This document shows positions 8,880 through 53,324 of a stretch of 56,049 bases of DNA, piece by piece. This DNA comes from Natrinema pallidum DSM 3751 (GTDB lineage Archaea > Halobacteriota > Halobacteria > Halobacteriales > Natrialbaceae). The stretch lies in NCBI RefSeq assembly GCF_000337615.1, contig NZ_AOII01000095.1, forward strand, positions 1-56,049, in the 5' to 3' direction. Position 1 is the stretch's first letter, and every line of letters starts with the position of its first letter. Both the position numbers and the translations under genes were made by a program. Under the pieces are notes generated by a model. It was not told the origin of the DNA. It worked only from the letters and a program-made list of their open reading frames with translations, and ran no database searches.

Positions 8880-9806
8880 CTACCCGTCGATCATTTCAAT
8901 AAGATCTTCCACCGTGCTGCTAATTCGCCCAAGTCGATCTTGAATCACGTCCGGCTCATCACCTTGCCACGCGGCCAAGTAGAACGCGGACCCGCTCGTA
9001 TCTAACTCGAAATACCGCCCGACGATGTACGCGACTGCCTCGGCCTCAACCTCGCGCTTTGATCGCTCGGTCTCGTCGGTTACGTCTGCGTGGAGTAGGG
9101 CGTGAGCGAACTCGTGGATGAGTGTCACGGCGAGGTCGGCCTGATTTTCGCGCGCTTTCGCCTCGACGACGGGTTGGAGATCACGCTTACTCCGGTACTT
9201 ACAGACGCCCTTTGCGTCGCCATGCTTCCACTCGGCAGCGTCGACGATGCAAACCGTCACGCCGAGTTCATCCGCTGCGTCGGTGAGTGCGGGCACCAGG
9301 TCGTCGGCGTCCCCCGTTGCCTCGGTTTCCAGTTCGGGGATCGGCTCACCCTCGGTCTGGGACACGTCGAAGACAGACGTGGGTTTGAAGCCGACTAGCC
9401 CTTTCGACCACTCGTCCGGCGACGTTTCGTCGTATTCACAGTCACTTTGCTCGTGGTAGCTAGGCGAGTTCTCGCACTTGGGACACTGCTTGGTAATGAT
9501 CGGGGCCCAAATCCAGATGGCTGACTCGCCTTCCTGGACGTGCCGGTCGAACTCATTCCGCCAGGTGTTGTAGCCGGCGACCTTCGTCGCCTCGGGACAC
9601 TGGAGATTGATGAGGAGCGTGTTTCGATGGGAATAGTCGTGGAAGCGACTCTGGACGTCGAGCCACTCCTGGAACTCCTCGCTGGCCTGCGCATCGTCAA
9701 CGTGGTCGACGAGCTCGTCGATCCACGCTTCGATGGTACTGTGCATCTCGTCGTGTCGGGCGTCGGTCTCCTCGAACGAGACCGACGAGTCACTGGTCGT
9801 AGCCAT
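8880..9806 (-). CDS. ArdC-like antirestriction protein with zincin metallopeptidase domain
   Basis: A 308-residue protein. The N-terminal half has the layout of the ArdC ssDNA-binding domain: FHDYSHRNTLLINLQCPEAT, VAGYNTWRNEFDRHV, and GESAIWIWAPIITKQCP with a CPKCxxxxxYHEQSDC insertion. The C-terminal half is a zincin with HEFAHALLHA near residue 230 and a downstream glutamate in KREVEAEAVAYIVGRYFEL. ArdC proteins enter recipients with conjugating plasmids and protect incoming DNA from restriction. Start is ATG 9806, downstream of a T-box/stem-loop leader. Its place on a conjugative element supports an antirestriction role. Family assignment is strong; activity is inferred. Confidence 0.85.
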   Translation of the reverse strand: MATTSDSSVSFEETDARHDEMHSTIEAWIDELVDHVDDAQASEEFQEWLDVQSRFHDYSHRNTLLINLQCPEATKVAGYNTWRNEFDRHVQEGESAIWIWAPIITKQCPKCENSPSYHEQSDCEYDETSPDEWSKGLVGFKPTSVFDVSQTEGEPIPELETEATGDADDLVPALTDAADELGVTVCIVDAAEWKHGDAKGVCKYRSKRDLQPVVEAKARENQADLAVTLIHEFAHALLHADVTDETERSKREVEAEAVAYIVGRYFELDTSGSAFYLAAWQGDEPDVIQDRLGRISSTVEDLIEMIDG

Positions 9807-9856
9807 AATGTTCACCGAATCGAGTTCACGGCGATTGCGTCAGTTCAGGACGCGCC

Positions 9857-9894: not shown

Positions 9895-10251
9895 TCACCG
9901 GAGGGTTGCTTTCTCGTCAGCGAAGCCGACCGCCACGAGGTACTCGAGGAATTCGTCGAACTGTTCCACGTCGCTGGGGGTGTCGGTCGCGAGGTGTCGC
10001 GCCCACTCGATAGCCCATCGGAACGCAGGGTCGGTCCCGCCCTTCCCGTGGATGTACCACCACCGGGCGGCCTTCAGCACGACGAGCGGATTCGTCGGCG
10101 GCTGCTCGCCGGCAAGCCCACGAGTGATTGACCGAATCTCCTCGGGTACCTCGTCGGGGGTAACCTCACCGGATTGCGTGTTCGCGATATTGACCGGAAT
10201 CGCATCGATCGAGACGTCGTTCGCACTCTGTTGTTGACTCACGAAGGTCAC
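9895..10251 (-). CDS. Hypothetical haloarchaeal plasmid protein
   Basis: A 118-residue protein. The most distinctive part is LKAARWWYIHGKGGTDPAFRW in the middle and a helical acidic C-terminus (DVEQFDEFLEYLVAVGF). No metal-binding, membrane or catalytic motif is visible. The ATG at 10251 lies 28 nt downstream of its own T-box/stem-loop leader, so it is probably a separate transcription unit in the antirestriction series. Family not recognised. Confidence 0.7.
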   Translation of the reverse strand: MTFVSQQQSANDVSIDAIPVNIANTQSGEVTPDEVPEEIRSITRGLAGEQPPTNPLVVLKAARWWYIHGKGGTDPAFRWAIEWARHLATDTPSDVEQFDEFLEYLVAVGFADEKATLR

Positions 10252-10313: not shown

Positions 10314-11315
10314 TCACGCTGGCGGGAGGTACACGCTCTGCTCGCCGGCGATCTCCTCGAGATTGTTCCGGTGTCGGTGTGCGAAATAGCAGTCATAACT
10401 GCAGTATCCACAGATCTCGCCCGTATCGTACTCCGCAATGTAGGGGCTGCGCCGGGTCATCCAGACGTTTGCGCCACATTCAGTACAGGTGGCGCTGTCG
10501 AGATCGGTCGGTGACGGTCCCTCGTACTCGATTTGGATGCCGTTCTCCTGCGGTGTCGACTCAGGCCAGACGCCGTGTGCCTGCCAGAACTCCCGAATAC
10601 GACCGAGGCTATGCCGGACAGTTTTGCGAACTGTAACGTGGTCAGCGTCGCGACCGCTATCGTCCCAGCCATCAGCTGACCAGAACTCGCCGAACTGTGC
10701 CCCGCGATGGAGGCCGTTCCAATCGATTCCGACGATGTCAGCCGGTGGTTCACCCGTGAGGGTCGGTCGGGTCAGTTGCTGGATGACGTCAAGCTGTTTG
10801 GGTGGACTCCCACCGAGGATATGAACGCGCTGGCCACGCCAGTCAGTCGGCTCGGAGAACTCGTGGGCCAAACGGTCGGCGTACCCGCGCGAATAGCCGA
10901 GGATGAGATCGTCGGGAATCGTGTGAATCACCTCTCGACACTTGGGAACGATAACGAGTTCTGCATCGGGATAGCTCGCCTGGATTTCGCGAGCCGCGGC
11001 CACGTACTCGTCGACGTCGTCGGGCTCGTATGCATCCCCAATCACGCCGACTCGGGGCTCGTGTTCGAAAAATCGGGAGACGTACCGATCCAAATCGGGA
11101 TTCCGAAAATCGTTATCGAGCATCCCGACGGGGATATCCAAGTGCTGAAACTGAGTCTGCTGATAACTACAATCTTCCCGAAAGCCGGGAAGGAAGCCGA
11201 GCTTCAAGGCATCCAACGCAAACGGAGCGCGATGCAGGAACGCCACGACGTCGGCTTGTCTGGCAGCTGCAATCTCTCGCGCAGTGCTGCTGCTGGTGCT
11301 GATATCAAGCGACAT
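10314..11315 (-). CDS. TGT/DpdA-like protein (DUF6610-type) with C-terminal zinc finger
   Basis: A 333-residue protein. The body resembles the tRNA-guanine transglycosylase barrel as used by DpdA, which inserts 7-deazaguanines into DNA. PVGMLDNDFRNPDLDRYVSR is followed by EPRVGVIGDAYEPDDVDEYV and AELVIVPKC. Then come ILGYSRGYADRLAHEF and a VHILGGSPPKQLDVI block, matching the late-barrel glycine-rich strand. VGIDWNGLHRGAQFGEFW follows. The C-terminal 70 residues hold a zinc finger (CTECG ... CGYCSYDC). I recall the family as DUF6610 in haloarchaea and their viruses. Start is ATG 11315. The base-exchange role in DNA is inferred from fold resemblance and the nearby Mom-like gene; the catalytic aspartates are not proven. 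Confidence 0.65.
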   Translation of the reverse strand: MSLDISTSSSTAREIAAARQADVVAFLHRAPFALDALKLGFLPGFREDCSYQQTQFQHLDIPVGMLDNDFRNPDLDRYVSRFFEHEPRVGVIGDAYEPDDVDEYVAAAREIQASYPDAELVIVPKCREVIHTIPDDLILGYSRGYADRLAHEFSEPTDWRGQRVHILGGSPPKQLDVIQQLTRPTLTGEPPADIVGIDWNGLHRGAQFGEFWSADGWDDSGRDADHVTVRKTVRHSLGRIREFWQAHGVWPESTPQENGIQIEYEGPSPTDLDSATCTECGANVWMTRRSPYIAEYDTGEICGYCSYDCYFAHRHRNNLEEIAGEQSVYLPPA

Positions 11316-11351
11316 GAGTAGGGCCTGGCGCGACCGTCTCTGGCCGCCCCG

Positions 11352-11384
11352 CACCCTTTCCGGGGGGAGAAAAAACGACCGGCG
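11352..11384 (-). promoter_or_regulatory. T-box plus stem-loop leader, copy 4
   Basis: Minus strand: CCGCCGGTCG, then TTTTTT (11370-11375), then a C-rich/G-rich stem (CCC and GGG arms, 11354-11365). It lies 39 nt before the DpdA-like start and directly downstream of boundary repeat A. Confidence 0.65.
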
Positions 11385-11392
11385 GTCAGCTG

Positions 11393-11433
11393 TTAACCAA
11401 CGAGCGTGCCAGATCCCCGGTTCCGTTGGTTAA
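11393..11433. repeat. Boundary inverted repeat A
   Basis: TTAACCAACG at 11393-11402 and CGTTGGTTAA at 11424-11433 form a perfect 10-bp inverted repeat with a 21-bp spacer. It lies between the Mom-like operon end (11474) and the promoter of the DpdA-like gene. One of eight copies. Confidence 0.9.
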
Positions 11434-11473
11434 TCGTCTGAACGAACCTCGAGGTGGTCCAATACTCCCAAGA

Positions 11474-12019
11474 TTACTCGTCGCTGTGATAGCGTCGGCG
11501 TACCTGCTCCGGATTCGGCACCCACGGATGGGCCTCCCAGCAATGGAGCGCGTGGTTCCGTGCCGAATCGAACCGTGACTCACATGACCCGCACTCGTAG
11601 GTTGCCTCGGGCCAGTGTTCCGTGACGAACATCGCCGTCACCGTCGACCTGACTGGGTCTGGTGCGGCCGCCCGCCGGACGTACTCGTAGCCGATTACCG
11701 TCCGTCGACGGAGTGCCGACTGAGCCAACCGCTCCGGCCTGTCTTCCGGGAGATACACCCAGCGCACGAACGCATCTTCCGACGCTTTCGCCGACGGTTG
11801 GAGAATGAACCACCGGTCGTACTCGTCGCGGAAGAGATACCGTTCAGTTCCCCGATTCTGGAGATAGAACGGATCACCACGACCGGGAATCAGCCGAAGG
11901 CCGACGGTCGACGAGATGGCGTTGAGAAGTCGTTCTTCGAGCGCAAGCAAGCCGGATTCACGGGACGACCTGCCGGTCACGAAGTCGTCAAGGGTTGCAT
12001 TCTGAGTCACGGCGACCAC
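11474..12019 (-). CDS. Zinc-finger protein, last gene of the Mom-like operon
   Basis: A 181-residue protein. The C-terminus carries a C2H2-type finger (YECGSCESRFDSARNHALHCWEAHPW, quoted in part: CGSC ... H ... H). The N-terminal 130 residues form a mixed domain (LIPGRGDPFYLQNRG, YLFRDEYDRWFIL) of unknown fold. Its start overlaps the end of the Mom-like gene by 13 nt, so the two are translationally coupled. A role in DNA or protein binding for the modification cassette is a reasonable guess. Boundary repeat A lies 41 bp after its stop. Confidence 0.7.
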   Translation of the reverse strand: MVAVTQNATLDDFVTGRSSRESGLLALEERLLNAISSTVGLRLIPGRGDPFYLQNRGTERYLFRDEYDRWFILQPSAKASEDAFVRWVYLPEDRPERLAQSALRRRTVIGYEYVRRAAAPDPVRSTVTAMFVTEHWPEATYECGSCESRFDSARNHALHCWEAHPWVPNPEQVRRRYHSDE

Positions 12020-12672
12020 CGCTCGAACGTCGCCTGCGTTCGGTCACGACCGGTGGATATCTCACACAGGAACCGCCATTTCGGCTTTTCACGAATTGGT
12101 TTGTCTGGTCGATTCCCCGCTTGCCCCGGTTCCGTCTTCCCCGTACAGTGCCATCCCTTGTCCCGGAGCGCTTTCAGCATCGACCCATCGAAATCGGCGC
12201 GGACGAACGTCAGGAGGAGTCGAATCCCGCGCCGGCGAGCTTCTCGCCGAATAAACTGCTCCATCGACCGTGCGAGCGCTGCCGACGCGAGGTTGGGGAA
12301 GTCGACGCCGATACAGATGCGAGCTGCCTCCACGATCTCGTCGCCCTCGTACCGTGTCTCATCGTGTTCGAGCGAGCGAATGAGTGGATGCCGCCACGTT
12401 ATCGCGCCCATGAGCTGTCCCTGATAGCAGAGGCCGTGATGAACCAAGTTGGTGAGCGGGACGTCGTCCATGTAGGAGTGGTGCGCTTCGTAGATCGCGC
12501 CAGCGACATGCCGGGGGATCGCCTCGATATACACGCGCTCGGCGAACCCGAGGCCGAGCGGCGCCGTGATCGGCTCGCCGTCGCGATGGATCGGACAGTC
12601 ACACCCGCCTGCTGTCCGCGTAAAGTGAAACCCGGTACGACCAGCCGTCTCACCGTCCTGGACGCTGGTCAC
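12007..12672 (-). CDS. Mom-like GNAT-fold acyltransferase
   Basis: A 221-residue protein. It resembles phage Mu Mom, a GNAT-related enzyme that modifies adenine in DNA to block restriction. The matching order is: AGAIYEAHHSYMDDVPLTN, HHGLCYQGQLMGAITWRHPL, EAARICIGVDFPNLASAALA, IRLLLTFVRADFDGSML, then ALRDKGWHCTGKTEPGQ. The central VDFPNLASAALARSMEQFI corresponds to the Mom P-N-x2-S region. The start is GTG 12672, overlapping the stop of the 55-residue gene upstream as GTGA. Assignment is by family layout; whether it acts on DNA, and on which base, is not visible. Confidence 0.65.
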   Translation of the reverse strand: MTSVQDGETAGRTGFHFTRTAGGCDCPIHRDGEPITAPLGLGFAERVYIEAIPRHVAGAIYEAHHSYMDDVPLTNLVHHGLCYQGQLMGAITWRHPLIRSLEHDETRYEGDEIVEAARICIGVDFPNLASAALARSMEQFIRREARRRGIRLLLTFVRADFDGSMLKALRDKGWHCTGKTEPGQAGNRPDKPIREKPKWRFLCEISTGRDRTQATFERWSP

Positions 12673-12836
12673 GATTCGTCGCGACCCGCCGTGTCTGCGT
12701 CTTTCTCTTCTGTTCCTCCCTGCTCGCGCTCATGTCGGTCGTTGTATCGCTTGAGTTCCCGGCCGATCTGCACTAAGGCCTCAACCGCGCGTTCGATGAG
12801 CTGGTAAGTGGTTCGTGAAAGTCGAAGATTCTCCAT
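12669..12836 (-). CDS. 55-residue protein, coupled between DUF6166 and Mom-like genes
   Basis: A short gene translating to MENLRLSRTTYQLIERAVEA and ending AGRDES. It is a single amphipathic helix region followed by a charged tail. It is held in place by overlaps on both sides: its ATG overlaps the upstream stop (TGATG at 12836), and its stop overlaps the GTG start of the Mom-like gene (GTGA at 12669-12672). Such tight coupling argues that it is real despite its size. Function unknown; it may be a small partner of the Mom-like enzyme. Confidence 0.7.
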   Translation of the reverse strand: MENLRLSRTTYQLIERAVEALVQIGRELKRYNDRHEREQGGTEEKDADTAGRDES

Positions 12837-13525
12837 CAGGCATCCCCCTCCTCCGGCTCGACGAGGTCGTTGCTCTCAGCGACGAGTTCCTGAATAGCGG
12901 GCGCAGGGTCATTCTCGACCGGGAGCGTTCGCACGTCGAGCGGAGCGGGATACGCTCGGTCACCCTGAGCGCAGAGCAGAATGAGCCACTCCTCGCTCCC
13001 GTCGCCGAGAACGACGTAGTGGTCGATGTCCCGGCGTTGGAAGACCGTCTGGTCTGACCGGCTCACGGCGCTCCAATTCGCCGGCAGCGATGGCGACGGT
13101 TCCCCACCATCTGGTGTGAGGGGATGGTTGTCCTGGAACTCGGCACGTGCAGCTTCAATGTCGTCGCCGGTGAGATGCCAGCAGTCAGCCGGTCCTTCGC
13201 ACGCTAGCTGGCTCACCATCGCGTTGCGGAACTGGATGTAGTGCTGGTGGGCGACGCTCTCGTCGTCGTAGTAGTCGAGCAGGATCGCGCAGGCGAGTTG
13301 CGCCGGACCGCTCCCGGTGTAGCCCCAGTCGAATCCTGATGGGCTATGTCGTGCGAGCTCGAGGCTTCGGTCGGGGGAGAGGCGCTCGTGCTCTGTAAGC
13401 TTCAGCACCACCGGCGTTCCGTCGACGCGCATGCCCACGTACTCGACGTGGTCTGCGTTTGCTTGGCATCGCTCACTATCATCCTGTACTGCCGCTCGTG
13501 GGTGGTTGGTCGAATCCGTCTTCAT
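12836..13525 (-). CDS. DUF6166 domain protein, first gene of the Mom-like operon
   Basis: A 229-residue protein. Residues 25-125 match the DUF6166 pattern: EYVGMRVDGTPVVLKL, LSPDRSLELARHSPSGFDWG, GSGPAQLACAILLDYYDDE, HYIQFRNAMVSQLACEGPADC, WHLTGDDIEAARAEF. A second acidic domain follows (FQRRDIDHYVVLGDGSEEW). The shorter paralogue at 15497-15898 shares the first domain only. Start is ATG 13525, 32 nt after a T-box/stem-loop leader. Function of DUF6166 is unknown; it is common on haloarchaeal plasmids. Confidence 0.75.
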   Translation of the reverse strand: MKTDSTNHPRAAVQDDSERCQANADHVEYVGMRVDGTPVVLKLTEHERLSPDRSLELARHSPSGFDWGYTGSGPAQLACAILLDYYDDESVAHQHYIQFRNAMVSQLACEGPADCWHLTGDDIEAARAEFQDNHPLTPDGGEPSPSLPANWSAVSRSDQTVFQRRDIDHYVVLGDGSEEWLILLCAQGDRAYPAPLDVRTLPVENDPAPAIQELVAESNDLVEPEEGDA

Positions 13526-13580: not shown

Positions 13581-13721
13581 TGCCGGACGAGCACCCTCGA
13601 GGAGAATAGTGATTTTCCACGGACCATTCAGTGGATGTAGAAGAAACAGTCGGATTCCGTGAGTGCTAAACTCGTATTCACCTGTCGGCTCCCCATCGTT
13701 GTCTGCTCTATCCGTCGGCAA

Positions 13722-15496: not shown

Positions 15497-15898
15497 TCAG
15501 ATGGACGGTGCGGCCGCTTCGTCGGATGTCTCGCGAAGGACTGCGTCGATGTCACTGCCGGTGAGTCGCCAGCGCCCGCCGGGACCAGTGCAATCCAACT
15601 GGCTTACGACCTGGTTTTTGAACTCCGTGTATTGCGCTAGCGCAACCTCCTCGTCGTCGGAGTAATCGAGCAGGAGCGCGAGCGCGAGTTGTGCCGGGCC
15701 ACTGCCCCCGTATCCCCATTCGAAGCCAGAGGGACTGTGACTCGCCAACTCGAGACTCCGATTTGGAGTGAGCCGTTCCTGACCGGGCTGTTTCTCCACG
15801 ATGGCGCGGCCTCGCTGTCGATAGCCGACGTAGACGACGTCACGGTCACTTCTCGGGCGTGTCTGTTCGACTGATTGTGAGTCGATAGTTCCACTCAT
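15497..15898 (-). CDS. DUF6166 protein, short paralogue
   Basis: A 133-residue protein made almost wholly of the DUF6166 domain (VYVGYRQRGRAIVEKQPGQE, LTPNRSLELASHSPSGFEWG, GSGPAQLALALLLDYSDDEE, WRLTGSDIDAVL). It is clearly paralogous to residues 25-125 of the protein at 12836-13525, with enough divergence to suggest an old duplication or separate acquisition. Start is ATG 15898, 38 nt after a leader stem-loop. Function unknown. Confidence 0.8.
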   Translation of the reverse strand: MSGTIDSQSVEQTRPRSDRDVVYVGYRQRGRAIVEKQPGQERLTPNRSLELASHSPSGFEWGYGGSGPAQLALALLLDYSDDEEVALAQYTEFKNQVVSQLDCTGPGGRWRLTGSDIDAVLRETSDEAAAPSI

Positions 15899-15933
15899 CG
15901 TTCTATTCGAGGTGTGCTCGTTCGAGCACCCCC

Positions 15934-15957
15934 GCACCCCTCAGGGGGCGAAAAAAC
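15934..15957 (-). promoter_or_regulatory. T-box plus stem-loop leader, copy 8
   Basis: Minus strand: CCGCAGAGCG, TTTTTT (15951-15956), CGC, then CCCCTGAGGGG. A second hairpin (GTGCTC/GAGCAC, 15914-15929) lies between it and the DUF6166 start. Confidence 0.7.
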
Positions 15958-43667: not shown

Positions 43668-46600
43668 TCATATATCTGGTTCATCTCCTTGATCGAGTAG
43701 TGTATACCCCTCCTGTGTCAAGGTGAGTCCGAGGTAGAACTGAACCCGGTCACCATCTACTCTAGACCGGTCGGTGTCGAGGTCGACTACGTTCCGCAAC
43801 TTCCGAGTGAACCAACCCTTGGTTGTCCCGTCGATATCGTGCTGGTCAGTCCATGTGGCGTACGCCTGAAACAGATCATCCTGTGGAACTTTGGCTCCAT
43901 CGGCCTGCCTGACGTACATCGCTGTAAACGCTTCAACACCGTCGCCGTCCGGGTCGATGTCCATCGACTCGTCTTTCGATGACGAATCAGATGCATCGGC
44001 ATCTAGTGGAGCATCCCTGCCAAGGCCGGTCGTCGAAACCTCGACCTGGCCTGAATCACCGGTGGAATCGTCCGGCCACAGCCCCTCGGGATCGGGATTC
44101 TTGGACAGCGCATACGTCTCTCCTTGCTGGAAAATCATTGGACTACCGTCAGCTGGCAAAATCAGTAAGATGTAGCTGTCGCGCGAAACGTCTGCATCTG
44201 GTAGATCGACGTCGGGGATGAATGGCCGTTTGATCGGGGTCCAATCCGCCTCGAAACCGTCTTTCGAGTCATAGACGCAGGTATCTCCAGGTTTGTGGAC
44301 GGTGTACTGGCCGGTTTCTCGATCGTGGCTATAGTAGGCCGGAACGCCGTTTTTGGAAAGCGTTCCCTCGTCTGGAACGCGAGCGAACTCCATCTCGCCG
44401 TCTGAAAGCACGCGCTCGTCAGCGTCTCGCGTCCAGACAGTCCGATTTGTGTCTGCGGTGCGTGGCCGAACAGCGGTTACCCCACCGTGAGCGGTCGCGC
44501 CACCGCCGAACATCACGATCTCGTCGCGATTATAGAACTGCTCGGTGCCGTCGGCCCGCTCTTTCAGCGGCGGCGAGAGGATGTTCTCGATTCGCTTGGC
44601 CCACTTCGTGTCGGAATCACCAGGACGGACGACGAAGAATGGTATCCGGTCGGCCTCGTGGGCTCGTTTGAGGTTCTGCAAGACTTTCGCGGGTCGGTCA
44701 GGTGTCGTCGTCTCGGCCTCGATATTGAACACGCCGTCGTGGTCTGGGTGGGTCGCAGTGGCGTCGGGTTGCTCGCTCCCGTCCTGTTCGAGGATATCGA
44801 CGCTGAACCCGCGCTCGGTGAGCGCCGTCTCGGTATCCATGAGTACTGCATCGTGGCTTGTTCCGCCCGCCGATCCGACAGCCCCAGTCTCAGGCTGTAC
44901 CGTCGTTTCCCCCTCGTCGGAGAGACGGGCGACGATGTCGTCGTTCTTCAGTTCGACTTCGAGCAACCGTGACGTTTCACGCACGTCCGGCAAGTCATCA
45001 TACTCAAAGTCAATGTCGGGATGGCTGTTCCCAAGGCGTACGGAGAGTTCTTCGTCGACGGCGGTGACGTCTACCCAACCGTTCTCCGTCCGTACGTCCT
45101 CCCGTATTTGCACTGCGCGAATCGCCTCCGCCATCGTCTCATCCAGGATTTTCGTCGGGTTTGCTGCTTCGTTGGCGTCGCTGTAGATGAGGTTCTGCAT
45201 AATCTCAGCGTCGGTCAGCGGGTCGGTCCCGTACCGGTCTAAACTCTGCTCGATGATATCGTCGACCGCATCAGCCGACCGAAGCGGTGGATACGGCGGG
45301 AACGAGCGGAGAAGGACGGGCTCGGAGTACCGACCGCCGTCAAGAGGCAGTTTCGTCCAGGCCTGGTATTGGTCGGTCGAGATGAGGTCCTCTGCCGTGT
45401 AGTTTCGGAACCTCTTCATCAAGAGCTGGGCGTCGTCGACATCGTTCACCGAGAAGGCGATGAGGTTGTCGCAGTTGTTCTGCATCGCCTTGAGCGTATC
45501 CTCGTCGAACTGCGACGGGTACTGGGAGGAAAGCGTCACGGAGAGACGCATCGACCGGGCACGGGCGAGCATCGATTCGATATCGAGGTTGTCACTCGCG
45601 ATGTCGTCAAACTCGTCACAGAGGACAAAGTAGGGGTCTGGATCGGTGTCTCGCTCGTATGACCGTTGTTGAATTGCGCTCCAGAGGTTCCGCATCACGC
45701 CGAGCGTGACCATCTTCTTGATGTCCGTGTTCTCGACGGGTGTGCGGACGATGACGATTCGGTCGTTGTCGATGATGTCGCGGAAGTCGATCGTGCTCTC
45801 GCGGTGGGAGATGATTCGCCGGATGACCGAGTTTTCGACCCACGATTTGATTCGCTTGAGCAGCGGTCGGACCGTCTCGTCGTCCATCCGTGCGATTTCG
45901 AGACAGAATTCGCGCACATACGGGTCGTCGACGTCGAGGGCGAACTCTTCGCGCCGTTCGGCGTTCAACAGCGTGAAGTACATATCGATCACCGAGAACG
46001 GTTTCTCGGACTGCATCATCGCCCGACCCATCGACTCGGTAATCGACTTCATGTTGATCCCCCAGTACTCGTCCGTATCGAAGATTGCTTTGAGGTTCTC
46101 GATGCGATTCTCGATTTCGTTTTCACGTTCCTCCTCGGTGTTGCAGTCGGGAACCTCGAGGAAATTCAGTCCGACCGTCTTGTCGTGCTCTGACGATCCG
46201 GGCTCGATCCAGACGACGTCGTCCAGACGGTCTTCGGGGAGTTTCCGCAGGAGTTCACGGGAGTCGCGACCTTTCGGGTCGAAGTATACGAAGCCATACC
46301 CTGAATACGCCCACTGGATCATCATATTCAGCAACTCCGTGGTTTTCCCGTAGCCGGTGGTGCCCGTGATCCAGATGTGCCGGAACAGCGACTCGAAGCG
46401 GAGCGGTGCTTCACGGAATCCACGTTGGGCGTCCTCGTCGTAGCCGATCCAGAGCGGGGCGGGCGAGGTGTCGACACCCGATTCGAACATCTCTCGGACG
46501 TGTGACCCTGCGACAGTGCCCTCACCTGCTGTTTCGGTGATGACGGACTTCCCACCAACGTAGGCCGTGTCTCGCTCACTGATATCGTACGTTTCGCCGA

Positions 46601-46754
46601 GTCGGGTCTGGGAAGCCGATAGTGAATTGGACGTTGAACGCTCGTCTCCGTTGGTCTGCGAATTGGGATCTACTTCCTCGTCTTCTGTGGACTTCTCGGA
46701 CGCTGGAGGCGACTCCTCGGAGTCGTCACGATCGAAAAATCGGTCAAACACCAT
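43668..46754 (-). CDS. VirD4/HerA-like conjugative coupling ATPase
   Basis: A 1028-residue ATPase. Walker A is IWITGTTGYGKTTELLNMMI near residue 140; Walker B is PYFVLCDEFDDIASD near residue 380. GFVYFDPKGRDSRELL and LSVTLSSQYPSQFDEDTLKA are typical of the VirD4/TraG and HerA class that pumps DNA into the secretion channel. The C-terminal 500 residues hold acidic linkers and a winged-helix-like end (AYATWTDQHDIDGTTKGWFT). Start ATG 46754 (MVFDRFFDRDD) overlaps the stop of the previous gene by 11 nt. Last gene of the conjugation operon. Confidence 0.88.
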   Translation of the reverse strand: MVFDRFFDRDDSEESPPASEKSTEDEEVDPNSQTNGDERSTSNSLSASQTRLGETYDISERDTAYVGGKSVITETAGEGTVAGSHVREMFESGVDTSPAPLWIGYDEDAQRGFREAPLRFESLFRHIWITGTTGYGKTTELLNMMIQWAYSGYGFVYFDPKGRDSRELLRKLPEDRLDDVVWIEPGSSEHDKTVGLNFLEVPDCNTEEERENEIENRIENLKAIFDTDEYWGINMKSITESMGRAMMQSEKPFSVIDMYFTLLNAERREEFALDVDDPYVREFCLEIARMDDETVRPLLKRIKSWVENSVIRRIISHRESTIDFRDIIDNDRIVIVRTPVENTDIKKMVTLGVMRNLWSAIQQRSYERDTDPDPYFVLCDEFDDIASDNLDIESMLARARSMRLSVTLSSQYPSQFDEDTLKAMQNNCDNLIAFSVNDVDDAQLLMKRFRNYTAEDLISTDQYQAWTKLPLDGGRYSEPVLLRSFPPYPPLRSADAVDDIIEQSLDRYGTDPLTDAEIMQNLIYSDANEAANPTKILDETMAEAIRAVQIREDVRTENGWVDVTAVDEELSVRLGNSHPDIDFEYDDLPDVRETSRLLEVELKNDDIVARLSDEGETTVQPETGAVGSAGGTSHDAVLMDTETALTERGFSVDILEQDGSEQPDATATHPDHDGVFNIEAETTTPDRPAKVLQNLKRAHEADRIPFFVVRPGDSDTKWAKRIENILSPPLKERADGTEQFYNRDEIVMFGGGATAHGGVTAVRPRTADTNRTVWTRDADERVLSDGEMEFARVPDEGTLSKNGVPAYYSHDRETGQYTVHKPGDTCVYDSKDGFEADWTPIKRPFIPDVDLPDADVSRDSYILLILPADGSPMIFQQGETYALSKNPDPEGLWPDDSTGDSGQVEVSTTGLGRDAPLDADASDSSSKDESMDIDPDGDGVEAFTAMYVRQADGAKVPQDDLFQAYATWTDQHDIDGTTKGWFTRKLRNVVDLDTDRSRVDGDRVQFYLGLTLTQEGYTLLDQGDEPDI

Positions 46755-47871
46755 TGTGTCCTCTGTTGTCAGCATTGCGTTCGTTGGCATCTCCGCTGTC
46801 GGTGGGCGGTTCGTATTGGCCTGCGTCGGCGGGGACGCGGTCACCGCGTTGCGTGTAGCGCCAGTCGATATTCGGCGTCTCGATCTCGTTGTTCGGGATG
46901 TGTGCGACGCCAGCGAGCTCGTCGACAGTCATAATCATACGCCGGTCGGTCCACTCGCGGTCGGCCATCCGGGTGACGTGCTGTTTGAGCTGACTCGCAC
47001 GCTTGGCTTCCTTCCGATGCCACACCGGCGTATCGTCGAGACCCTGCTCGGTGATCGCGTTGTAGTACTTTCTGAACATCCCGGCCACCCCACGGGCACG
47101 GGCCTCGGCCTCGTCCTTATCTGCTGAAATTGCGACCACACGGATGTTGACGTGGAATGCCTGCTGGCCGCGCTGCTGCTCGATGGTTTTGGCGGCCTGC
47201 TTGTCCTTCTCGCTCGCTGGTCGCGTTCGGGGATTGAGCCATCCCACCGACGTTCCCTGGCGGAGCGCGTGGGCGAGGTCGTCGACGCTGTTGTGCTTGA
47301 ACCGGTCGCCCCCCGTCCAGGACTGCTTGGCCGGTCGAAAGACGACTTGCGTGATGACCTTGCTGTCGTCGAGCGAGAGCATCTCGCTCGTGATCTCGCC
47401 ATATGGATCCGTCTCCCACTCCTCGCTGTTGTGATGGCGAATCGGGTAATAGGGGAGCTTCTCCATCTCCAGCCACGCGCCAGCGACGTACTCGTCGGGC
47501 TCAATGACGGGGAAGGCAGCCCCACCTTCGACGGGGAACACCTCGCTGTTTGCGTAGTTGTTCCCGACACGGCGGCGGAACTTGTCGGCGGCCGCCTCAG
47601 TCGCAGCGTGCATATAGAACTTGATCTTCCCCTCGTCGAACCAAACCTCGAAGGAGTGGTGGTCGCTCGTGTTCTTCCCCCGGAAGTTCGTCGTCACGTC
47701 GTGGACCGACTGGAGCAGTCCGGCGCCGTCGACGACTCCCTGATTCTCTTTGAACGGACGAATTCTGAGCAGGATACCCGGCGCACTCTCCGGGTGCTGG
47801 ACGAACGGCTCTTCGAACTCCAGCTGTGTTGCGTCGTACTGCGGGTTGCCACTCAGGAGCTGACTAAACAT
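46744..47871 (-). CDS. Conjugation-associated protein, split N-domain of the coupling ATPase
   Basis: A 375-residue soluble alpha/beta protein. It reads like the N-terminal ferredoxin-like region (DUF8128-type, from memory) that precedes the ATPase in related VirD4/HerA proteins: TQLEFEEPFVQHPESAPGIL, SFEVWFDEGKIKFYMHAATE, FRRRVGNNYANSEVFPVEGG, and later AFHVNIRVVAISADKDEAEA. It is encoded directly before the ATPase with overlapping ends on both sides. I propose that the two work as one split protein; this is inference. Confidence 0.65.
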   Translation of the reverse strand: MFSQLLSGNPQYDATQLEFEEPFVQHPESAPGILLRIRPFKENQGVVDGAGLLQSVHDVTTNFRGKNTSDHHSFEVWFDEGKIKFYMHAATEAAADKFRRRVGNNYANSEVFPVEGGAAFPVIEPDEYVAGAWLEMEKLPYYPIRHHNSEEWETDPYGEITSEMLSLDDSKVITQVVFRPAKQSWTGGDRFKHNSVDDLAHALRQGTSVGWLNPRTRPASEKDKQAAKTIEQQRGQQAFHVNIRVVAISADKDEAEARARGVAGMFRKYYNAITEQGLDDTPVWHRKEAKRASQLKQHVTRMADREWTDRRMIMTVDELAGVAHIPNNEIETPNIDWRYTQRGDRVPADAGQYEPPTDSGDANERNADNRGHNGV

Positions 47872-50800
47872 CGTCGGTACCCTCCTCATTGGACTGGACA
47901 GCGTCGTCTCCACCGTCAGCGAGGGCGGACGTCTCTACCGTACCGTTCCGCCGTGCGTTCGCGACGACCGCTTCAATGAGCTCGTCCTCGGTGAACCCAT
48001 CATCGAGAATGCGAGCCGCCTCGTCCTCGCAGAGGTCGTAGCGGTTGGTAAGCGCGTTCAGCCGCGCCTCGTTCTCCACGAATTCCTCGAAGTCGACGAG
48101 ATCCTCGGGTTCGGCACTTATCGTCTGCTGGATGAACTCGCGATCGTCGGGTTCGTAGTCAATGACGCGCTTCTCGAACTCGTCAGCGACGACGTGCAGC
48201 GGGTACGTCCCGTGTTCTTCGACGCGGACGAGCGCCTGACTGTATCCGAGGTCCTCCTTGCCTGCGTCGGCCCCACGGACGTACTGGCGCTGCTCACGCG
48301 TGAGCCCGATCTTGTCGGCCGTCTCGTCATCCAAGTCGGGCAGTTTGTGGAAGACTTTGATGGGGCACATACCGAGAATCTTCTCGGCCTGGTCGGTCTC
48401 GTAGAACTCCTGGGCAGTCTGGGACAGCAGTACCATCCGCAGGCCGGCGTGGCGCTGGTGGCGGAACGCCGTTTCGAGGAAATCGAGATTCGCCTGATCC
48501 TCGAACAGGTAGTGGGCCTCGTCGATGGCGAGTTCGACGTTTCGATCGGTCTTTTTCGCCTGCTGGTAGACCGTCGACAAGAGCAGCTGCATCAGGAACG
48601 TCTGGCGGTCGATTCCCGACGCACTCCCCTCGATCTGCCCGAGATCGATGTAAACGACCTTGTTGTCGCCTTCGAGGATGTCGATCTCCGACCGCTCAGA
48701 GAGGTTGGCGTACGCACCACCGTCACGGAACGGCTGGAATGCGATTGCGAGTTCGTCGGCATACTTGGCGGCGCGTTCGCGAGCAGATTCGGACGCTGCG
48801 ATGTTGTGCTCGTCGGGATGGTCGGCAATATCCGCGAGGATACGATGGACGTCCGTCATCGTCGGCGAGTTCTCCGGGGTGTGAGTGCTGACGTCGTCCT
48901 CGACGACACCGGCCTGTCGGTACGCCTCGTCGATGACGTACGAGAGAACGCCCGTTTCGGTTCCGAGGTTGATATCGCGAGCGGTCAGGAAGTTCTCGAG
49001 GATGGCGTAGACCTCGTCTTTCTTCGCGGACAACGGTGAGATACCGTCCTCGGATTCGAGCACCTCCTGGGGCGTCTCACGGATTTCCAGGGGATTCAGC
49101 TGTGTGTCGCCCCCGACAGAGATCGTCTTCGCGTTCAGCGCGTCGGCGATGCCTTTGAACCCACCAACCGGGTCGATCATCACGAGCATCGTCTCCTGCT
49201 GGCGCTTCATCATCCGCAGGTGGCGCATGATATCCCCGAACGTCTTCCCCGCACCGGGCATTCCGACGACGAGTTCGCTATGGCCGGTTTCGAGCTCCCA
49301 GGGATTGATCTGGACGGGTGACCCGTTGTGGCCGTGGTAGCCGTACTCGACGCCCTCGTCCATCATCATGTAGTTCGATGAGAAGGGGAACATCGCGCCG
49401 ACCGCCTGATTCGTGAGTGTCGACATCCGATCACGACCAAGCTCATTCCGACCGAGGGGTGAGACAGTCGCAAGGCCCTTCTCTTGCCAGCGGTTCGCCA
49501 CCTTGAGCGTACAGTTCGCTGGCGCGTCCTTGACAATCGAGCGCAGGCGCGTCGACTGGTTGTCTAGTTCCTGCTTGCTCTCGGCGGAGAGTCGGATGAA
49601 GACGCCACCACGGTAGAACGACGCTTTGTTCGCCCGGACGAGTGACCGCATGAACTTCCCCCGGTCGATGTCGTCCTGGAGGTCTTCGGCTTTGAGGCTA
49701 TTCGAGTCGTGCTGGTTGACCTTCAGATCCGAAATCCAGTCGGCCATCATGTCCTCGGCCGACTGATTGTCGAACGGATCGAGATGGATGCTGATGTCCG
49801 TCTGCAGTTCTGTCTCCAGCAGCAATCGCTCAAGCATCCCGTCGGCAGGTTCCTCCGGGAACTGCTCAATCCAGAACGTCCGAATGTACGTTTCGTCGTT
49901 GATGACGGCGTAGGTCGTCTCCCAGTCGACTGTCGACGGCGCAATGACCGACTGGTGGATCGTCGACGTGTCGTCAAGTCGGTTCTCGTAGGTGATATCC
50001 GTCTCGTCGTCCGTTTCTGACGCCTTGCTGCCCTCGTCGTCAAGGTCATCGACGGAGACGTCCCACTCGTCGCTCTCTTGGTCGTGACCGTTGGTCGAAG
50101 CGCCACGCCTGCTGTACTGGTCGTCGTCCATCGCGTCGACGACGTCGTCTGGGTCAGGGGTCGACGGCACGTCGTCGCTGATGCCGTGTGCAACGACCGG
50201 GAACGTGCCGATCGCGTCAGTGATGTCGCCGTACTCCTCAGTACGTCCCGTCCAGTATTCTTTGGTCACACGAGTGAGGTCGTAGGCGTCGACGGGACTG
50301 ACCGAGCAGCGGTAGAGCGAGGACCCACCGCGGCGGATCTGTCCGAGTCGGGACTTCAACTTATCTTCTTTGAGGCGGTCGCGTTCGGCCTCGGAGAGAC
50401 CATCAGACTGAAACCGGCCAAACACGCGCCCCAGGACAGGTATGTCGGCGAGGTAGGCGAGTACGCTGTCACCGGTTTCGTCGAGCTGTTCGACGTCGGC
50501 GTCGCGAACGGCGGTGATGATGTAGTATTCGCGGATGGTCGTGCTTTCGGAGTCGATATCGCCGTTCTGATCGGTGTTGGTGGTGATGTACTCTTCGAGC
50601 AGCCGTTTGAGGACGGGCCGTGAGCGGACATCGGCGTCACCGAGGCGGCGCTGGTGGCCGCGGACGACGTCGTCCTGGTCGACTTCCCGGCTAGTGAGAT
50701 AGAACTTCACGGGGAAGTCGATGGTCGCATTGACGAACTCGGAGAGCGATTGGACGGCTTTCGCCCACGCTTCGTCGTCTTCGAGCGCCATATTCGCCGG

Positions 50801-51211
50801 CTCGACTTTCATTGCGCCGACGAGCGCGCCGTCTGACCGCTCGATGGCGTGCGGGAAGACCTGCCCTACGCGGGTCAAGTAGCGGACCTCGCTGTTATTC
50901 TCACCGTGTGTGTACTCCTTGTTCTTGACCGCCCAGCCGAGCCGGGCGGCCAGCCACTCGGTTAGCCACAGGTAGGAGGGCTTCACCTTGTGGAGTAATC
51001 CCAGAAGGAGTCCGAGCATGATGCCGAACCCGAGGATTGGGATCGTGAAGGTAGCCGGGACGAGTGCTGCGCCGATGAGCGTGACAAACGCCACGCCGAC
51101 GAACAGCATGATTTCGCCGATGGTGTACCCCTGGAAGAACGCGGTCGTCCCGCCGAGTGATTGATGAATTCGTCGTGCACTATACTCGTGATCGTCAGTG
51201 TTCGTACTCAT
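47864..51211 (-). CDS. virB4: VirB4-like conjugation ATPase with N-terminal membrane segment
   Basis: A 1115-residue ATPase. Residues 25-80 hold two transmembrane helices (IGEIMLFVGVAFVTLIGAAL, IPILGFGIMLGLLLGLL), like a fused VirB3/PrgI-type anchor. The VirB4 body follows. Walker A is SELVVGMPGAGKTFGDIMRH near residue 645; Walker B is VELAIDEAHYLFEDQANLDF near residue 895, followed by GLRMVLLSQTAQEF. VirB4 powers pilus assembly and DNA transfer. It overlaps the next gene by 8 nt. Best-supported gene of the conjugation operon. Confidence 0.93.
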   Translation of the reverse strand: MSTNTDDHEYSARRIHQSLGGTTAFFQGYTIGEIMLFVGVAFVTLIGAALVPATFTIPILGFGIMLGLLLGLLHKVKPSYLWLTEWLAARLGWAVKNKEYTHGENNSEVRYLTRVGQVFPHAIERSDGALVGAMKVEPANMALEDDEAWAKAVQSLSEFVNATIDFPVKFYLTSREVDQDDVVRGHQRRLGDADVRSRPVLKRLLEEYITTNTDQNGDIDSESTTIREYYIITAVRDADVEQLDETGDSVLAYLADIPVLGRVFGRFQSDGLSEAERDRLKEDKLKSRLGQIRRGGSSLYRCSVSPVDAYDLTRVTKEYWTGRTEEYGDITDAIGTFPVVAHGISDDVPSTPDPDDVVDAMDDDQYSRRGASTNGHDQESDEWDVSVDDLDDEGSKASETDDETDITYENRLDDTSTIHQSVIAPSTVDWETTYAVINDETYIRTFWIEQFPEEPADGMLERLLLETELQTDISIHLDPFDNQSAEDMMADWISDLKVNQHDSNSLKAEDLQDDIDRGKFMRSLVRANKASFYRGGVFIRLSAESKQELDNQSTRLRSIVKDAPANCTLKVANRWQEKGLATVSPLGRNELGRDRMSTLTNQAVGAMFPFSSNYMMMDEGVEYGYHGHNGSPVQINPWELETGHSELVVGMPGAGKTFGDIMRHLRMMKRQQETMLVMIDPVGGFKGIADALNAKTISVGGDTQLNPLEIRETPQEVLESEDGISPLSAKKDEVYAILENFLTARDINLGTETGVLSYVIDEAYRQAGVVEDDVSTHTPENSPTMTDVHRILADIADHPDEHNIAASESARERAAKYADELAIAFQPFRDGGAYANLSERSEIDILEGDNKVVYIDLGQIEGSASGIDRQTFLMQLLLSTVYQQAKKTDRNVELAIDEAHYLFEDQANLDFLETAFRHQRHAGLRMVLLSQTAQEFYETDQAEKILGMCPIKVFHKLPDLDDETADKIGLTREQRQYVRGADAGKEDLGYSQALVRVEEHGTYPLHVVADEFEKRVIDYEPDDREFIQQTISAEPEDLVDFEEFVENEARLNALTNRYDLCEDEAARILDDGFTEDELIEAVVANARRNGTVETSALADGGDDAVQSNEEGTDDV

Positions 51212-51217
51212 GAATCG

Positions 51218-52420
51218 TCACCACCGCGAAACCTTGTTTTTCGTATTCCTGAACGCCTGCTTCGACCGGGCCTTCGCCGCCTGTGTGGCCTGATTCACGT
51301 CTTCTTTCGTCTTATCGCGCATCCGCCCCGTCCTCGATTTCCGGAGGTTGTTGTAGCGGCCTGCGTGGTCTTTCGTTGACTGCGCAGACGAGCCGAGTTT
51401 GTAGGCTTTTGAGTCACCGCTCCCGAGCTGGGTCTGCCCGCTCTTTGTCACCGGCCCGCGCCCGTTCTGAGCGTACCCTCGATGGACGTTGCGGGCACCG
51501 CGAACCGATTTTCCGGTGCCTTTCTTCGCGGCATTCTTTGCTTTTGGCGCACCTTTCGCGGTTGCTCCCGCACCGGAGTGGGCAATACGCTGGAGCGTCG
51601 GCGCACTCCAATAGACCGTTAGAATACTCGCAATGCAGGCTGCTGGAATGAGCGAAAGACCGAGAAGCAACGCAAATAACGCACTTAATCCACTGGCTGG
51701 GTCAGTCTGCCACCCGAGTCGGAACAGTACCGCGGCCGGAATCCCTGCGATAATGAGGCCCGGATAGATACTTGCTCCTCGGCGTGCGATATTCGACATG
51801 GAATTAACCGGCCATACGTCTACCGCCCACAGAACGCCGAGTAACGGCATCAGTGGCGTCAGTACGATCACACCGAGCCATCGAAGACCATAGACGAATG
51901 CGGCCAAGAGAAGGAGAATATTCTCTACAAAGACCATCACTAACACGGCAATCAGGCCTCCGAGTCCTGCTTTCGCCATCCCTCCAAACCCAGATGACAT
52001 CTGCTCAATGGGTGCGAGTGTCATTCCAATCGAGTTCACGAACTGGAGTGGAATCGAGATGAGCGGGAACCAGACGAACGATCCCATGAACACGATGCCA
52101 ATCCGGCGAAGGAGTCGCTTGCGGCGGTACTCGCTAATAGAGCCCGCTCGGAGTCCGATAAAGGCGAGAGCGACGACTAACAGCATAATCGTCAGTGGCA
52201 GGATATACGGGAGATAGAAATCCTGGTATATTGACTGCCACGGGTCATTCGATGGTGCGCCGACGACGATGTACCGGGAATTGGATTCTGGCGCAGGAAC
52301 ACCGACGATCGGCTGTAAGAGCGCTTGAAAGACGTCTTGTGCAAGTCCAAGCAGCCCGTCCTTTATCCGAGTAAGGACATCAATGATGGCATTCTTCACC
52401 TCTTCTTCGAGCCATCCCAT
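51218..52420 (-). CDS. VirB6/TrbL-like polytopic membrane protein
   Basis: A 400-residue protein with about six transmembrane helices between residues 70 and 290 (YLPYILPLTIMLLVVALAFI; IAVLVMVFVENILLLLAAFV; YGLRWLGVIVLTPLMPLLGV; ALFALLLGLSLIPAACIASI). A basic soluble tail of 100 residues is rich in Lys, Arg and Gly. An N-terminal amphipathic helix (MGWLEEEVKNAIIDVLTRIK) precedes the first helix. The topology fits VirB6/TrbL channel components. Start ATG 52420 leaves a one-base gap to the upstream stop. Six bases separate it from virB4. Confidence 0.8.
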   Translation of the reverse strand: MGWLEEEVKNAIIDVLTRIKDGLLGLAQDVFQALLQPIVGVPAPESNSRYIVVGAPSNDPWQSIYQDFYLPYILPLTIMLLVVALAFIGLRAGSISEYRRKRLLRRIGIVFMGSFVWFPLISIPLQFVNSIGMTLAPIEQMSSGFGGMAKAGLGGLIAVLVMVFVENILLLLAAFVYGLRWLGVIVLTPLMPLLGVLWAVDVWPVNSMSNIARRGASIYPGLIIAGIPAAVLFRLGWQTDPASGLSALFALLLGLSLIPAACIASILTVYWSAPTLQRIAHSGAGATAKGAPKAKNAAKKGTGKSVRGARNVHRGYAQNGRGPVTKSGQTQLGSGDSKAYKLGSSAQSTKDHAGRYNNLRKSRTGRMRDKTKEDVNQATQAAKARSKQAFRNTKNKVSRW

Positions 52421-52421
52421 A

Positions 52422-53324
52422 TCAGGTATCACTCCCGTTCGATGTTGTCGAGGTTTGGTCAGTTGTCTCGCTACCGACAATCGTGAGTTCACAGGCTCCT
52501 TCTTCCCCACCGTACTCAATCGTCTGCGAATACGATGGGTTAGATCCCGGTTCGACAATGGCGGTCAGGTGCAGCGTTTTTGTGTCGATGTTTTCGCACT
52601 CGACGGCAGACGCACCGACGAGACCGCCACTGGTTTCGTAGACTGGCGGGATCGCGTAGACCGCCGTTGTTTCACCTGGTGGGAGCGACTTCGTATGTTC
52701 GAATGTCTGTTCGTCTTCATCGGTGCGAAGGACGAACGGTGCATTCCGCCAGCGAGTTCGAGCGAGCATTGCTGGTCCACTCCCCGTGTTTTTCAGGAGA
52801 AATGCGGCGTGGGTCTCCCAATTATTTGCTGACTTGTCCCACTCCATGTCAGGATGATTTTTCGCCCACTGGAACTCGGTAAGCGTCACCTCTGGTTCGA
52901 GGTCGAGCGTTATCTCGCCGAGCGTTTCATCATTCTTGACGGCAACGAGCCGGTGCGTTCCCGGTGTGTAGCCGTCGGTGCTCTGTCCGACGAGATCAAA
53001 CGAAGTTTCCCTTCCGCCCGGTGCGACCTTCGCCTTCTCTGAGAGATTCCCGTCTGGACCAAAGCGACGCACCCAATCAGCGGACGTATCATTAGCGAGT
53101 GTAACGACGAGTTGACTGCCGGCGACTCTAACCCCCGCAAACACGCCTGACTGTGATGCAGGTGACTCAGTCATCGGATTGGTATTGTTTGCGGGTGTGT
53201 CGCTGCCAGTACCGGGGTTGTCTGTGCATCCAGCGAGCGCGACAAGGGCACCGCTGAGTCCACTGAGGACTGTTCGGCGGTCGATACACCTGCTGTGACT
53301 GGGTGAGTTGGTGTTGTCGTTCAT
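52422..53324 (-). CDS. Tat-secreted lipoprotein of the conjugation operon
   Basis: A 300-residue protein. The signal is a Tat type (DRRTVLSGLSGALVALAGC) ending in a lipobox cysteine near residue 33, so the protein is folded before export and anchored outside the membrane. The exported body has two beta-rich domains (FAGVRVAGSQLVVTLANDTS, THAAFLLKNTGSGPAMLART) of Ig-like appearance. The 4-nt ATGA overlap with the upstream gene shows coupling. A surface role in mating contact is plausible. Confidence 0.85.
   Translation of the reverse strand: MNDNTNSPSHSRCIDRRTVLSGLSGALVALAGCTDNPGTGSDTPANNTNPMTESPASQSGVFAGVRVAGSQLVVTLANDTSADWVRRFGPDGNLSEKAKVAPGGRETSFDLVGQSTDGYTPGTHRLVAVKNDETLGEITLDLEPEVTLTEFQWAKNHPDMEWDKSANNWETHAAFLLKNTGSGPAMLARTRWRNAPFVLRTDEDEQTFEHTKSLPPGETTAVYAIPPVYETSGGLVGASAVECENIDTKTLHLTAIVEPGSNPSYSQTIEYGGEEGACELTIVGSETTDQTSTTSNGSDT

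Follow-up and report, generated by a model that had tools for sequence, protein, structure and literature searches.

What the DUF6610 protein and the Mom-like protein encoded close to each other on a conjugative element of Natrinema pallidum DSM 3751 do to DNA, and whether they do it together, is the question raised by contig NZ_AOII01000095.1 (56,049 nucleotides, referred to in the following as the window). The initial annotation had interpreted the first protein as a DpdA-like enzyme with a tRNA-guanine transglycosylase (TGT) barrel and an added zinc finger, and the pair as a device for stacked or sequential base modification of the transferred DNA. The gene set on which it was based, namely those for the DUF6610, C2H2-type, Mom-like, 55-residue (o55) and DUF6166 proteins, was confirmed, all on the minus strand, and the VirD4/TraG-like and TrbL-type proteins found on the same contig make the term ‘conjugative element’ right. 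The segment is likely to be part of a haloarchaeal conjugative anti-restriction island, in which DUF6610 would be a highly diverged DpdA-like DNA guanine transglycosylase that inserts a 7-deazaguanine supplied by the host, and the Mom-like protein would be a separate, optional cassette.

The strongest evidence for the function of DUF6610 is the genomic linkage found in its viral relatives. The phage records that match DUF6610 by tblastn are all haloarchaeal viruses, and gp69 of HVTV-1 is a member of the family (PF20314, E 2.7e-56). The folE gene directly precedes HVTV-1 gp69, HCTV-1 gp64 and HCTV-5 gp68, and clusters with queF, queC, queD and queE. In the DNA of HVTV-1, dPreQ1 amounts to about 30% of G; no DpdA was found and a host enzyme was suggested (Hutinet et al. 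2019, PMC6884629). HVTV-1 gp69 is a natural candidate for the enzyme inserting preQ1 into HVTV-1 DNA. Among 43 IMG/VR loci with DUF6610, some of which are near-duplicates, que genes are present in 12, a Vut_1/YhhQ transporter in 14 and either of them in 22, the nearest such gene being less than 300 bp from DUF6610 in all cases but one (L115, 1 kb). A Pfam check on a subset of the viral loci confirmed QueF, QueC, PTPS, GTP cyclohydrolase I and Vut_1; in E. coli, a part in the transport of preQ0 is ascribed to YhhQ (PMC5372724). ParB domains are fused to several viral DUF6610 proteins, much as the phages Typha, Brownie5, Sonali and phiSM have ParB genes neighbouring dpdA. In the exceptional L115 locus (L115:7226-10657) a ParB-like-DUF6610 fusion, a second ParB-like open reading frame (ORF), a Vut_1/YhhQ transporter and QueF are encoded by overlapping genes. 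In the Hafunaviridae (HJTV-1 and others; L103:7815-8729), DUF6610 has no annotated que genes nearby, and the DNA of these viruses may be modified by using host preQ0.

Since the viral genes are linked to que and transport genes, and gp69 lies beside folE in a virus with dPreQ1 in its DNA, DUF6610 is probably DpdA-like. The family as a whole is probably a separate, highly diverged group of DpdA-like DNA transglycosylases, for which we infer catalysis, base identity, targets and protection. The case is strong for the family, and it is by transfer from the viral members that we infer the function of the plasmid branch.

The predicted structure points in the same direction. The AlphaFold2 model of the DUF6610 protein of the window (46-sequence alignment) has a confident core formed by an alternating beta/alpha barrel, with a poorly predicted tail, and a TGT (2pwu) ranks first among its Foldseek matches in the PDB (1.2e-4). 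In BFVD an HCTV-1 protein and a phage protein named after ParB/sulfiredoxin come out on top, annotated phage queuine tRNA-ribosyltransferases being found among the weaker matches. Across 17 very diverse members of the family, residues D47, D74, P106, H145, L147, G148, P151 and D171 (L114 numbering) are invariant, and correspond to D67, D94, P124, H165, L167, G168, P171 and D198 of the window protein, where N200 is also listed as conserved alongside D67, D94, H165 and D198. The hhalign alignment with phage DpdA, the score of which is not significant, is collinear and sets D67/D94/H165/D198 opposite D63/D105/H187/D206 of DpdA; its 141 aligned columns exceed the maximum of 76 obtained with shuffles. 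In the alignment with archaeal TGT, also with a non-significant score, VHLLGGSP...D stands opposite VHLFGAGHP...FDS. As the scores are not significant and a TGT-DpdA positive control is likewise weak in the same setup (E 0.016), the profile alignments are taken as a matter of consistency only. In place of the added zinc finger of the initial annotation, the protein does have a Cys-rich tail (C277xxC280...C302xxC305xxxC309), which is kept by close relatives and missing from more distant ones.

The setting in which the plasmid gene is found is one of anti-restriction. Of 292 Halobacteria genomes, 99 carry PF20314, which is spread over 45 of 77 genera and often present in multiple copies per genome; the Mom-like protein occurs in 39 of the 292. 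Synteny was read in 60 regions from Halobacteria genomes and in 80 named genome loci, the counts for ArdC, o118 and Mom being taken from those of the 80 loci with enough flank. The recurring order, which speaks against a chance arrangement, is D6166a (a DUF6166 protein), o55, Mom (where present), C2H2, cargo (in some elements), DUF6610, o118 and ArdC, with D6166a as the first gene of the operon that extends to C2H2. ArdC is co-directional with DUF6610 and at most 3.5 kb downstream of it in 68 of 72 loci, whereas Mom is upstream of DUF6610 in 8 of 67 loci and absent from the other 59; the near-constant partner of DUF6610 is ArdC, not Mom. When plasmid R388 is transferred by conjugation, its ArdC is required in the recipient cell to counter HsdRMS restriction (PMC7213743). 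Of the initial proposal that the protein inserts 7-deazaguanines into DNA, what stands, by way of the viral relatives, is a probable activity of a TGT-type barrel enzyme in an anti-restriction setting.

As for the precursor, the host has QueC and QueD homologues, adjacent on contig C45, and no match to QueF was found in its genome. With QueC and QueD present and no QueF, preQ0, the precursor of archaeosine, is the likely substrate, and the product of the plasmid DUF6610 is likely dPreQ0 or a derivative. The same precursor is used by the host arcTGT, which has a similar barrel, and the resemblance of the modelled DUF6610 barrel to the TGT fold in the Foldseek comparison could also be expected of an extra archaeosine tRNA transglycosylase acting on RNA. 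This alternative is, however, very improbable, given that contig C53 carries TGT genes of the host, that DUF6610 is not matched by the TGT model and has ArdC adjoining it, and that viral relatives come with a preQ1-type pathway, HVTV-1 carrying dPreQ1 in its DNA (PMC6884629). A third PF01702-type gene of the host, on contig C61 (L101:9701-10735), lies close to a transposase-like ORF; its 344-aa product is a DpdA-like transglycosylase that could also modify DNA.

The identification of the second protein as Mom-type was borne out by its match to phrog_1384 (‘Mom-like DNA modification protein’, 6.5e-8) and by the residues that it has in common with phage Mu Mom. Their alignment contains 16 invariant columns, M1 included, among which are H58, Y59, H70, E108, R111, N121 and S124 (Mu numbering); several of them coincide with positions reported to be important for Mu Mom, a lead rather than a test. 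A relative, gene 19 of HRTV-4, passes the Pfam Mom cutoff with 32.6 bits, and gene 215 of HGTV-1 is annotated as Mom-like. The Mom-family gene of HRTV-4 (L104:4959-5501) is annotated as hypothetical and has a large terminase gene two genes downstream.

The gene arrangement is that of an optional slot. Where Mom is present, RTGA overlaps are found at both junctions (o55 to Mom and Mom to C2H2), and where it is absent the stop codon of o55 overlaps the start of C2H2 (ATGA); the C2H2 gene is, in other words, coupled to Mom or straight to o55. The second copy of the island in the same genome (contig C38, L049) is without Mom. Among 34 Mom-bearing haloarchaeal regions counted, one short contig having been left out, DUF6610 is found within 20 kb in 20 and is not found in 14. 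Mom and DUF6610 assort independently, and an obligate two-step pathway is therefore disfavoured; their obligate pairing was rejected on synteny (Mom in 8/67 DUF6610 loci, DUF6610 near 20/34 Moms). Stacked or sequential modification by an obligate pair, as initially put forward, could not be upheld, the slot being empty in most DUF6610 elements, the second copy of this genome included. A form of the same idea, in which each protein acts on the product of the other, or both function only together, to build a compound hypermodification, could draw on the co-location of the two genes, seen in 20 of the 34 regions with Mom and in two divergent subfamilies, and on phage proteins in which a GNAT domain and DUF6610 are joined in both orders. 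Yet Mom is missing from 59 of 67 DUF6610 neighbourhoods and from the second copy of the island, DUF6610 is missing near 14 of 34 Moms, and the phage GNAT domains match Acetyltransf_1/7, not Mom, so that such a dependence is given very little credence. The pair is better read as belonging to a mix-and-match anti-restriction island; where both genes coexist, two marks on one DNA are possible, and nothing was seen to indicate that either gene depends on its partner.

The GNAT domains in question are fused to, or overlap, DUF6610 in uncultivated viruses, N-terminally in L119:9437-10567 and L123:9461-10546 and C-terminally in L261:9749-11071, and further GNAT neighbours of DUF6610 are found among the IMG/VR viral loci. 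The fusions suggest that some members acylate the inserted base. An extension of this idea, which we regard as unlikely, is that GNAT and DUF6610 acylate the 7-deazaguanine after its insertion to give an undescribed N-acylated base, on one chain in the phage fusions, and that the haloarchaeal elements with Mom and DUF6610 may carry out a version of this or else carry two different hypermodified bases on the conjugating DNA.

A number of observations weigh against the reading of the segment as an anti-restriction island with a DpdA-like enzyme. The TGT model PF01702 does not match the DUF6610 protein in Pfam, and direct membership of the TGT family by this route was rejected; the PDB sequence search with DUF6610 returned no match; the barrels of pyruvate kinase and FBP aldolase nearly equal TGT in Foldseek score; and the hhalign comparison with TGT/DpdA is not significant (E 0.25, with a score z of about 1.6 relative to 150 column shuffles). 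The ‘TGT-barrel DpdA-like protein’ of the initial annotation stands as far as the predicted TIM barrel and its best PDB match are concerned, other TIM barrels being close, and does not stand as to family, which is DUF6610 and is unrecognized by PF01702. Nor does DUF6610 match the DpdA sequence families phrog_887/7068, to which CAjan DpdA belongs, giving phrog_23010/16059 only, and a scan with a DpdA profile hidden Markov model placed no DUF6610 above decoys, a negative of poor reach since haloarchaeal DpdA and archaeal TGTs were missed too.

To the same side belong the results on the plasmid branch. In the tree, the que- and Vut-linked DUF6610 proteins group together (100/98), separate from the Druskaviridae, and those from haloarchaeal plasmids and chromosomes make up a long-branched clade of their own (100/100); no que genes were seen beside the plasmid copies, the linkage holding for the viral members. 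Because the clade is separate, long-branched and without adjoining que genes, a changed function of the plasmid DUF6610 is possible: having lost or changed its transglycosylase activity, it would read, remove or cleave 7-deazaguanine DNA, e.g. to exclude viruses like HVTV-1, and many haloarchaeal viruses do carry DUF6610. The retention of the Asp/His signature residues, the presence of anti-restriction ArdC rather than defence genes as the neighbour, and the absence of PADLOC matches for DUF6610, C2H2, Mom, o55 and DUF6166 make this quite improbable.

For the Mom-like protein, the Pfam Mom match (PF25680, E 2.3e-4, 21.3 bits) is below the cutoff of 27.1, and the structure model, with a predicted local distance difference test score of 50, is too poor for confirming the GNAT fold or for searching; the PDB sequence search gave chance-level matches only. 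Both the sub-cutoff score and the poor model would suit an ordinary GNAT enzyme with a protein, small-molecule or tRNA substrate, which is nevertheless rather unlikely in the light of the PHROG match, of the HRTV-4 relative above the Pfam cutoff and of the invariant residues in common with Mu Mom. Finally, the gap between C2H2 and DUF6610 contains in some elements (L070:8873-17339, L149, L185) MerA-like and P-type-ATPase-like ORFs, as judged by eye, and a recurrent protein of about 400 aa without Pfam match. An island made of anti-restriction genes only was rejected, as metal-resistance-looking cargo enters at this position.

If the island is nevertheless of the kind proposed, ArdC would shield the incoming DNA on entry into a new cell, DUF6610 would remove selected guanines from the DNA and insert preQ0 drawn from the archaeosine pathway of the host, in some elements the Mom-like protein would probably attach a bulky group of the acyl type to adenine in that DNA, and the element DNA so marked would resist host restriction enzymes at the next transfer. 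A DpdA-like DUF6610 would give a direct and testable answer as to which enzyme places preQ1 in the DNA of HVTV-1, and, with the family in about one third of the sampled Halobacteria genomes, would mean that DNA with 7-deazaguanine is likely to be a characteristic of conjugative elements in haloarchaea. DUF6610, ArdC and the optional Mom would constitute a set of modules that may allow plasmids of archaea to escape restriction. Restriction limits the transformation of haloarchaea, for which the module may be of practical relevance. DUF6610 is mentioned nowhere in the literature searched, the coverage of which is partial for recent phage 7-deazaguanine work, so that priority is uncertain; no relevant paper on DpdA3 or DpdA4 was found in it.

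The features of the window are collected in table 1. Two DUF6166 paralogues are present in the region, at 15497-15937 and 12836-13486, and the contig also encodes a Cdc6/Orc1-type protein and TFIIB.

Table 1. Genes of the putative anti-restriction island and of the conjugation region (positions in the window).
Feature	Position	Strand	Remarks
ArdC-like anti-restriction protein	8880..9815	-	PF08401 and PF06114 above cutoff; phrog_7245 anti-restriction, 7.5e-13
o118, conserved 118-aa protein between DUF6610 and ArdC	9895..10251	-	downstream of DUF6610 in 57/72 loci
DUF6610 protein, 333 aa	10314..11315	-	ORF opens at 11354; PF20314, E 2.5e-80
C2H2-type zinc-finger protein, 181 aa	11474..12019	-	Cys/His near C-terminus conserved; synteny; junctions
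Mom-like protein, 221 aa	12007..12672	-	phrog_1384, 6.5e-8; PF25680 below cutoff; predicted adenine-modifying GNAT-superfamily enzyme, optional cassette
o55, 55-aa protein	12669..12836	-	N-terminal half conserved; stop overlaps Mom start
D6166a, DUF6166 protein with extra C-terminal domain	12836..13486	-	ORF opens at 13627; PF19663, 2.9e-26
Conjugation region: VirD4/TraG-like coupling ATPase, second TraG-type ATPase, TrbL_3/VirB6-like protein	43668..52510	-	

Among the known systems, the DpdA of Escherichia phage CAjan and of phage 9g resembles DUF6610 in the predicted TIM barrel, in the Asp/Asp/His/Asp motifs, which the non-significant hhalign alignment places in the same order, in the ParB and que neighbours of viral members and in the anti-restriction setting; it differs in that the sequence similarity is not significant, the PHROG and Pfam families are others, the plasmid DUF6610 would depend on a host precursor, and the close haloarchaeal subfamily has a Cys-rich tail. 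HVTV-1 gp69 and its Druskaviridae homologues belong to the same Pfam family as the window protein and have the invariant Asp/His positions, but they come with a virus-encoded preQ0/QueF pathway and a long extra N-terminus, and no ArdC or Mom was seen alongside them. With arcTGT, DUF6610 has in common the TIM barrel and the likeness of VHLLGGSP...D to VHLFGAGHP...FDS, whereas it lacks a PF01702 match, has another Cys pattern and, at 333 aa, is shorter than the approximately 480-560 aa of arcTGT. The Mom-like protein is joined to phage Mu Mom and phrog_1384 by the invariant columns, and set apart from Mu Mom by an identity of 20%, a score below the Pfam cutoff and its location on a conjugative archaeal element. 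The ArdC of R388 (PMC7213743) and that of the window both combine an ArdC N-terminal domain with an IrrE-like (IrrE/M78) peptidase domain and both belong to conjugative elements, the latter differing in being archaeal and in adjoining DUF6610.

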